This document shows positions 25,862 to 28,770 of a stretch of DNA of 64,000 nucleotides, piece after piece. The notes beneath the pieces were generated by a model. That model saw nothing but the letters and a program-made list of their open reading frames with translations, made no database searches and had not been told where the DNA came from. How positions within the stretch are numbered: position 1 is the first letter of the stretch; each line of letters opens with the position of its first letter. Source of the DNA: Medicago truncatula (Eukaryota; Streptophyta; Magnoliopsida; Fabales; Fabaceae); assembly GCF_003473485.1 (NCBI RefSeq), contig NC_053046.1:18475001-18539000 (forward strand), written 5' to 3'. The translations under genes and the position numbers were made by a program.

Positions 25862-26023
25862 GACAAGGATGAGTAAGACTGAATTATCAAGGATGAAGCA
25901 ACCACTTAATCCGCTGGCAACCTTGATCGATTGTGAGCTACGAAATGGAAAAACGGAGAAGGCTTTTGTGAAGTATGGACATGCTGGTTTGGCAAAAAAA
26001 AGAAGAAGATTAAAAAAAGAATA
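25862..26023 (+). pseudogene. captured exon, source gene unidentified
   Basis: After an acceptor-like tract (gttgacatatag) the frame reads MSKTELSRMKQPLNPLATLI, DCELRNGKTEKAFVKYGHAG and LAKKRRRLKKE before a stop at about 26021. The codon-like composition differs from surrounding AT-rich DNA. It lies between the transposon's left end and the phytoene desaturase exon. Not recognised. Confidence 0.4.
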
Positions 26024-26250
26024 GTTTTAGTTAAGCTTTCTTATTCCTTAGACAGACAGTGTCATTGCCTCGCTTTCTTATTCGTGTGATTATGGTATTC
26101 TTTGACGCTCTTATTTTGCTTCTTTTTTCTTCTTCACTAATATGGTTTTCATGGCTGGTATATACTTTTCTCTTTTAAAAGAAACCGACTCATTTTCTTA
26201 CCTAATGTGAACAAATGTTTACAAGTTGCATGCTGTGAATTTGATAACAG

Positions 26251-26399
26251 GAATATGGGCAATCTTGAGGAATAATGAGATGCTGACGTGGTCAGAGAAA
26301 ATCAAAATTTCAATTGGACTTCTTCCAGCCATGCTTGGTGGGCAGGCGTATGTTGAGGCTCAAGATGGTGTTTCTGTTAAAGAATGGATGAGAAAGCAG
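26251..26399 (+). pseudogene. PDS: captured phytoene desaturase exon
   Basis: Exon bounded by acceptor ...gataacag and donor GTATCG. It encodes [39 protein letters not shown] and [10 protein letters not shown], the well-conserved mid-region of plant phytoene desaturase (carotenoid pathway, plastid). Intron-like DNA precedes it. Adjacent PDS exons are not seen up to 28100. The splice sites are intact, so it could still be spliced into a chimeric transcript. Confidence 0.85.
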
Positions 26400-28158
26400 G
26401 TATCGTAGTTGTCTTGATTCCGTAACTGTGGCAGTTCATAAATAGATTTATATTCGTTGGTTAAATTACCAGTCAAGGTCATGGGCTGTTGTGACTTGAA
26501 AATTTCAGATAGAAATCTTGTCAGTTTGTAAATGGAGTGGAGCGACTCCTAACCATCTTAGTGATACTGATAAGTATTCTGAAATGAGTTGATTTAGGAT
26601 GGATTTCCAGTGACTTTATGATGATAATAAGAAGTCCTTTTATATTAAAATTCAAATTATCTCATATGAAGCTCTGTATAAATTTACTTTCATGCTACTT
26701 AAAGCTATCAGCTCAAACAAACTATGATATTATATTTGTATTAAACAATGCATTATAATTCTGATGTTTTTTTTTCTTTCTCAAAAATAAAATAAAAATT
26801 AATGCGCTAAAAGATCTTTTTGTAAAGAAAGAGTTTCCTTACTTCCAAGAGTGGGAAAATATTAAATTGTGTACTTTGTTCTTGGGAAATAGGTTGGGAA
26901 ATTGTTGTTATTATTTCAGTTAAATGAAGGTATTTTTGACTCTAGTAAAAACAGTAGTTAGCATAACTTCTCAAATAATGAGAGAAGCCTATAGACTTAG
27001 TTTCTACTTGGTATTGGCTGTTGAGATGTCAAAAATATCATTCTTACGCTAAATGTATTAGTTCTTTTAGGATAGTTAGTTCATGACATGGTACCACATA
27101 GCTTCTTTCAATAAGAAATCTAGTTTGATTTTAAGTCTCCATTTTATGAGAAATTGAATTTCAGCACTAGATAGGGAGAGCTGTACATTAGCAACATTTC
27201 AAACCCAAGTAACTCATGTGAGAGGGAGTGTCAGAGACGTCCATATAACTTCATTCAAGTATCCTCACTTAGTAATAGGTTAAGATTATGAGATTGTTGA
27301 TAAGTTGATTCATGACACTAGCTTAACAATATAAAATATGAACAATTGTGTACTGAAATGGTCCTTGCTTGTGTTTTTCTTGGTTTTGACCTTGGGTAAA
27401 GGGGAATGATAGAACTCTATTACTTAGGGAAAGGGGTTTTTTTGAATCATAGAGGCGAAGTTTTGAGGAAATTATAGCAGTAATTGTCATCTTCCGTTTT
27501 TCAAAGTTGTGTCTGTATTATGACATCCACCTCCCAAGAACTTAATCCATGCATAATGGGTGGTGCACTATCAATTGTATTACAATTTCATTAGATGTTC
27601 TGGCTGTGAGTTTCGTAGAGGAAGTTTCCTGTGAAATGAATCTTCTAAATTGAGTTACAATGTTATTGCTCTTAATAGTATGTATTGGGTTGAGTTTAAT
27701 TTTGAGATCTTGACCCAAGCATGAGACAATATATTTTGAAAAACAAAAATGTTTTTGAAATTTTAGTCCAATCAGGTTATTTCAGAAATCTTGTTTCTTA
27801 TGGGAAGTATGAAGCGTGTTTCAAATCTGCATTCAGCATTTTGTTGTGCAGAATGATGTCAAATTCCAAGTAGTGGTTTTACAACATTTGCAAATTTTAT
27901 ATTTCATGATAATGAGCTTTTGCAACTGTCCATAAACATTTGACGCTTAAAAACATTTTACGCTTAAGAGTTCATTGCAATAAGAAATAAAAAATGGATC
28001 AAAAGTTTAAAATTGAAACAACTCATGTTTATCATTCTTATGAACTGATTGACAATGTTGAAGTGTGACCTCTTCATCCTTATGAATCATATTCATTCTT
28101 TCTACACTTCATTATTACTTACTTTTGGCCATGCTTTCTTTCTGTATTTGTTTTTCAG

Positions 28159-28281
28159 GCGAAGAAAGAGTGTTTTGCATCGTGCCTCTCCACTTGTTAT
28201 GAGCTAATACGGCCAGATGTTGCATTAGAGCTAGCCTGGAAGAACAATATGATGGATTTTTCCATACCTTATCTCTTACAG
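28159..28281 (+). pseudogene. CHC: captured clathrin heavy chain exon
   Basis: A 41-codon exon with acceptor tttttcag and donor GTATGT reads [40 protein letters not shown] and Q. This is the penultimate part of the clathrin heavy chain C-terminal region (legs and trimerisation side). The source gene is unrelated to PDS, so at least two host loci contributed. No stop inside. Confidence 0.85.
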
Positions 28282-28707
28282 GTATGTTTTTCACAATGGT
28301 CTCTTTCATTACGATTATTATTAAGGACAAACTTTTTCCCGTTTGTTAATAATGATTTTTAATTTTAGTCATTTGTATATTGTTCAATTTTGATCAATAA
28401 GATTTGTACAAAAAATTAACGCCGGAACTTTATGAAGGTTGCCCATGTATGGAGAATTGAAGCTTGCCCTATTCATATTCATGTGGTATCCCAAAACTAA
28501 GGTAAAAACATAACTTGTTTGAGGGAATGTCTATTTGGACACTTAGTTTTACCCTGGATGGAGTACATATTTATTTGTGAATGGTGAAAATTGATGTTCA
28601 TATCTAAACTACTAGATCAAAATAGGCAGCAAGTGTCAGATATTTTTTTCCTCCAATGGTTCAAATTCTGTTGAAATCTTCAATCACTTATTTACTTTTT
28701 TGTTTAA

Positions 28708-28770
28708 GATGTTCCAGGCCTAGAGGCGGTCGAGGTGGAGGTCCTGCCTTACTGAATCGCGGCGCTGGGT
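28708..28770 (+). pseudogene. possible captured RGG-rich exon
   Basis: Reads CSRPRGGRGGGPALLNRGAG followed by gtaagttt, a good donor. Acceptor-like 'ttgtttaag' precedes. Short Arg/Gly-rich exon of unknown origin, downstream of the clathrin exon. Confidence 0.35.

Follow-up and report, generated by a model that had tools for sequence, protein, structure and literature searches.

In the window (the whole stretch of DNA analysed, 64,000 nucleotides), a CACTA transposon with cargo from at least two unrelated plant genes, and probably from three or four, sits exactly on the start codon of a secretory-pathway gene of the p24 family. Taken as a whole, we consider it probable that this transposon captured host genomic DNA before it inserted at the ATG of the p24 gene, and that its cargo exons would act as cassette exons. 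The window holds the ends of the element, its target-site duplication (TSD), the cargo, a partial transposase set, the intact target and an uninterrupted tandem copy of that target, and thus offers a clean and complete case for the collection of exons by a CACTA transposon and for the effects on the target gene.

The element was the one complete CACTA transposon with terminal inverted repeats (TIRs) and TSD in the window, and its outline was as follows, together with one open reading frame of its interior.

23781-23783, + strand: left TSD ATG, the left copy of the p24 start codon
23784-34723, + strand: CACTA transposon, 10,940 bp, with the TIR CACTACTAGAAAA at both ends and the TSD ATG
23784-24103, no strand: left TIR and subterminal region rich in GCGACGG/CCGTC, by motif count
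34244-34723, no strand: right subterminal region and TIR, by motif count
29383-29793, - strand: acidic open reading frame of 136 aa in the element, internally duplicated (two units of about 138 bp, 75% alike)

The sequence CACTACTAGAAA at 23784 (+ strand) and at 34723 (- strand) formed the termini beginning with CACTA. The pattern CACTACNNGAAA gave two matches in the window against 0.10 expected, one at each end of the element and in opposite orientation, and the TIR arms (23784-23813 and 34694-34723) were identical at 26 of 30 positions. A looser TIR pattern with 2 mismatches was uninformative (18 found against 11.1 expected). The 3-bp duplication ATG/ATG lay directly outside both TIRs. The GCGACGG/CCGTC motif, which was picked after inspecting the element ends, was counted 14 times in the first 320 bp and 17 times in the last 480 bp of the element, and 0-1 times per 400-bp bin in the 25 bins of its interior.

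Four pieces of cargo were delimited between the left end and the transposase gene.

25869-26012 (end approximate), + strand: probable first coding exon from a phosphatase of the PP2C type (At1g68410-like), truncated and probably frameshifted near its end
26251-26399, + strand: captured phytoene desaturase (PDS) exon, 149 bp, phase 1 to phase 0
28159-28281, + strand: captured clathrin heavy chain (CHC) exon, 123 bp, phase 0
28718-28768, + strand: exon-like piece, Arg/Gly-rich in one frame (PRGGRGGGPALLNRGA), with splice-like borders

The PDS and CHC exons had been named in an earlier, sequence-only reading of this DNA, and comparison with PDB sequences bore out both identities. The 50-aa reading of the PDS piece (GIWAIL...MRKQ) matched the rice phytoene desaturase 5mog along all 50 residues (E 2.4e-23), this being the sole sequence matched at 0.001, and residues 2-41 of the 41-aa reading of the CHC piece matched the clathrin heavy chain 3qil (E 6.1e-17), all six distinct sequences matched by this piece being clathrin heavy chains. 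These matches are far beyond chance. Both reading frames were open on the + strand, with several replacements compared to the solved sequences, and the derivation of the cargo from unrelated genes, which the same reading had proposed, holds by these PDB matches. Its placement of the cargo inside the CACTA element was also upheld; a separate insertion outside the element was rejected, since the PDS and CHC exons lie between the TIRs with their matching ATG/ATG duplication. Pfam searches with the short PDS, CHC and PP2C-like pieces gave no matches.

Protein similarity placed the ends of the PDS and CHC exons at AG and GT sites. When splice sites were scored using weight matrices and ranked against the 3307 GT and 3342 AG sites that the window has on its + strand, the PDS acceptor and donor fell in the top 2.8% and the top 3.0%, and those of CHC in the top 0.09% and the top 0.03%, respectively. 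These splice-like borders, strongest for CHC, favour the uptake of genomic DNA with its introns and not of spliced mRNA.

The other two pieces had been described beforehand as exon-like segments at 25862 and 28708, and they were kept in modified form: the first became the probable truncated PP2C exon, and the second was shifted to 28718-28768, where it has splice-like borders (acceptor at 28718 in the top 1.2%, donor at 28769 in the top 1.1%) and gave no match in a PDB search. Usable splice sites had been claimed for all of the cargo; splice-like borders were present for PDS, CHC and the 28718 piece, and a proper donor was lacking for the first piece. In the latter the ATG lies at 25869, behind an AG acceptor at 25848 (top 2.7%); no good donor marks its end, and the best one within it is at 25987 (top 4.8%). 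Positions 25911-26000 resembled a provisional At1g68410-like PP2C sequence (63% over 30 aa, E 2.9e-5 against the whole window), and both the end of the piece, a few codons further on, and the frameshift, in a run of A, were presumed from this same provisional protein. The assignment is a lead only, and a PDB search with the piece gave only unrelated sequences (best E 0.96); the piece probably stems from the truncated first coding exon of a phosphatase of this type. Upstream of this exon a 40-bp direct repeat was observed (25290-25329 and 25411-25450, 97.5%).

In an alternative reading the cargo is a new chimeric gene encoding 131 aa, with the PP2C-like ATG exon joined through the donor at 25987 to the PDS and CHC exons, and a promoter perhaps captured along with the PP2C 5' end. 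Splicing of 25869-25986, 26251-26399 and 28159-28281 does give a single frame that stays open as far as the fourth exon, where it meets a stop, the junction from PDS to CHC being in frame, and the upstream bin 24984-25383 has a leader- or exon-like GC content of 0.388 against 0.223 and 0.263 in the neighbouring bins. However, the donor needed ranks only in the top 4.8% of GT sites and was the one of four donors tried that keeps the frame without a stop, two phase agreements of one in three each are not rare, and the fourth exon stops immediately (A, then stop), a setting for nonsense-mediated decay. We regard such a gene as very unlikely.

The right-hand end of the element adjoins the p24-family gene at its start codon, a circumstance that the sequence-only reading had overlooked. 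This gene is the first of four p24-family (EMP24_GP25L-like) sequences, all on the + strand, that make up a tandem cluster at 34724-57456.

34724-34726, + strand: right TSD ATG, identical with the p24-family start codon, from the TSD and the flank alignment
34724-36597, + strand: p24-family gene interrupted by the element, 219 aa, intact
40002-42325, + strand: intact tandem p24 paralogue without insertion (EMP24_GP25L E 9.1e-35)
51363-52117, + strand: p24-like sequence without a first-exon match
56038-57456, + strand: p24-like sequence, member of the tandem cluster

The interrupted gene has four exons (34724-34945, 35682-35897, 36289-36365 and 36453-36597) and when spliced matched the Pfam model EMP24_GP25L with E 2.8e-42; its first exon alone scored below the cut-off for this model (19.4 bits), and in a PDB search gave only unrelated sequences (best E 0.23). 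It shares 144 of 212 aligned residues with the paralogue at 40002 (dN 0.196, dS 0.413, NG86). The sequence at 51363-52117 is probably broken, because it lacks a first-exon match. When the flanks of the element were joined, the paralogues at 40002 and 56038 could be aligned across the junction, although only 11 and 8 bases of the left flank, respectively, were covered, counting the ATG. Each paralogue has an ATG opposite the junction ATG, which for 40002 is the second Met codon (40008). This alignment indicates that the element entered exactly at the ATG and so parted the leader from the coding sequence. Further left no clear likeness was found between the left flank and the DNA upstream of the two paralogues. 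Two left-flank matches (E 0.012 and 1.2e-4) were short and inverted and were rejected as promoter likeness.

The left ATG now reads ATG CAC TAC TAG (MHY and stop), a three-codon frame that runs into the TIR, and PDS, CHC and p24 are all on the + strand, so that the cargo has the orientation of the interrupted gene. The p24 gene keeps its protein frame in this arrangement but is separated from its own leader and promoter, and would lack them unless a replacement comes from within the element. The intact frame suggests that the insertion is fairly recent. With its ATG duplicated and its protein untouched, the gene provides an easy test of whether a transposon can take over a promoter. An extended form of the chimeric-gene reading would have the captured PP2C promoter, leader and ATG drive the 131-aa PP2C-PDS-CHC fusion, while read-out from the side of the transposase gene drives p24 with its restored ATG; if true, a single insertion would have created one gene and changed the control of another, an outcome that we judge highly improbable.

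One transposase gene was identified in the element.

30901-33977, + strand: TnpA-like gene (Transposase_24) of several exons, the first two introns having weak splice sites

Two joined exons of this gene scored 48.1 bits for Transposase_24 against a cut-off of 28.7, single exons remaining below the cut-off. For the first intron one donor of the right phase was present near the end of exon 1 (score -3.4), and for the second there were three frame-keeping donor-acceptor pairs above the set score (donors 0.8, -1.9 and -1.9), which shared a single acceptor (0.3). With splice sites this weak, the gene is possibly damaged. Its Ser/Thr/Pro-rich first exon contains an overlapping direct duplication (31041-31598, 357 bp, 92%). 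Neither Transposase_21 nor another TnpD domain was detected at E up to 0.01 among 105 stop-free frames of at least 40 aa on both strands of the element, in a Pfam search that could miss short or decayed pieces and that also left the PDS and CHC pieces unreported. On the Pfam searches a complete TnpD gene in the element was rejected. Since transposition of En/Spm needs both TnpA and TnpD (PMC2613891), the element is probably non-autonomous. The name Pack-CACTA, which had been proposed for it at the outset, is apt in that fragments of host genes lie inside the TIRs, but fits only loosely because the Transposase_24 gene is kept: under the packFinder rule a transposase match assigns an element to the autonomous or derived class and not to Pack-TYPE (PMC8903248).

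The weak splicing signals of introns 1 and 2 of the TnpA-like gene, together with the single copy of the element that was seen, could also be read to mean that the pieces entered as filler DNA during break repair inside an old, dead element and were not captured during transposition. Against this, matching TIRs and an exact 3-bp duplication enclose the element in its entirety, together with the cargo, and the p24 frame that adjoins it is intact, which suggests, without proving it, that the element did not arrive long ago. Filler DNA is in our view an unlikely source of the cargo.

Under capture during transposition, the explanation that we favour, the CACTA element would have taken up genomic stretches from unrelated host genes, intron-like flanks included, before its insertion, which the sequence shows, at the p24 start codon in the same orientation as p24; it was presumably mobilised by TnpD from a relative. 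A published model of capture invokes neighbouring insertions and their joint re-mobilisation (PMC8903248; also the review PMC13317346). The cargo exons may act as cassette exons, as in Tgm-Express1, in transcripts that would be initiated either at the p24 promoter, now displaced, or within the element. Chimeric transcripts from the cargo are plausible by the precedent of Tgm-Express1, and their reading frames are expected to be mostly interrupted; most would meet early stops and be non-functional.

The closest precedent is Tgm-Express1, the CACTA element of the soybean wp allele, which carries five captured fragments that are spliced in many combinations, its chimeric transcripts starting at the F3H promoter and many of them having early stops (PMC1947982). 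As described there, it shares with the present element the exon and intron pieces of unrelated host genes, usable splice sites and insertion in a host gene (PMC1947982). It differs in size (5.7 kb against 10.9 kb here), in its insertion site (an F3H intron against the p24 start codon) and in its cargo, whose splicing was seen in transcripts, that of the cargo described here being predicted (PMC1947982). The present element has a TnpA-like gene, whereas the word transposase is absent from the main text of the Tgm-Express1 paper (PMC1947982).

The Pack-CACTA or Pack-TYPE elements of Arabidopsis, maize and rice likewise have CACTA ends and captured coding pieces. The Pack-TYPE pipeline, as published, excludes transposase matches, whereas this element keeps its TnpA-like gene (PMC8903248). 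Some of the CACTA-like elements described from Chenopodium contain Transposase_24, and captured gene pieces lie 5' of the coding region, as here; there, however, the position of such pieces is given with reference to a TPase-associated domain, of which the present element showed none, and the cargo is different (PMC8978399). In one open-licence library no paper was found that joins phytoene desaturase, clathrin heavy chain and a transposon. Gene-collecting CACTA transposons are already known, and this element is a good new example and not a new kind.

The sequence-only reading had also raised the idea that the cargo gives rise to small RNAs, which would silence PDS and CHC. Sense pieces of both genes do sit in a transposon, and plants often silence transposons as a matter of general knowledge. 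When the element was compared with the window by self-BLAST (E up to 1e-4) an inverted copy of the cargo (25862-28770) was absent, which leaves the idea without sequence support, and both Rfam matches of the window are miRNA families that lie outside the element. We hold silencing of this kind to be highly improbable.

The two Rfam matches above the gathering score were MIR2617 (15589-15674, - strand) and MIR5285 (46473-46535, + strand), both families known from Medicago, which makes a legume near Medicago the probable host. The tRNA scan found none in the window, and a bacterial-type promoter scan, which is unsuited to plants, gave 3 matches against 4.4 expected. Three further features of the window were identified by Pfam.

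4734-5366, + strand: DUF4378 gene piece
20618-21280, - strand: KIB1-4 beta-propeller gene piece
47378-47845, + strand: zf-RVT reverse-transcriptase remnant
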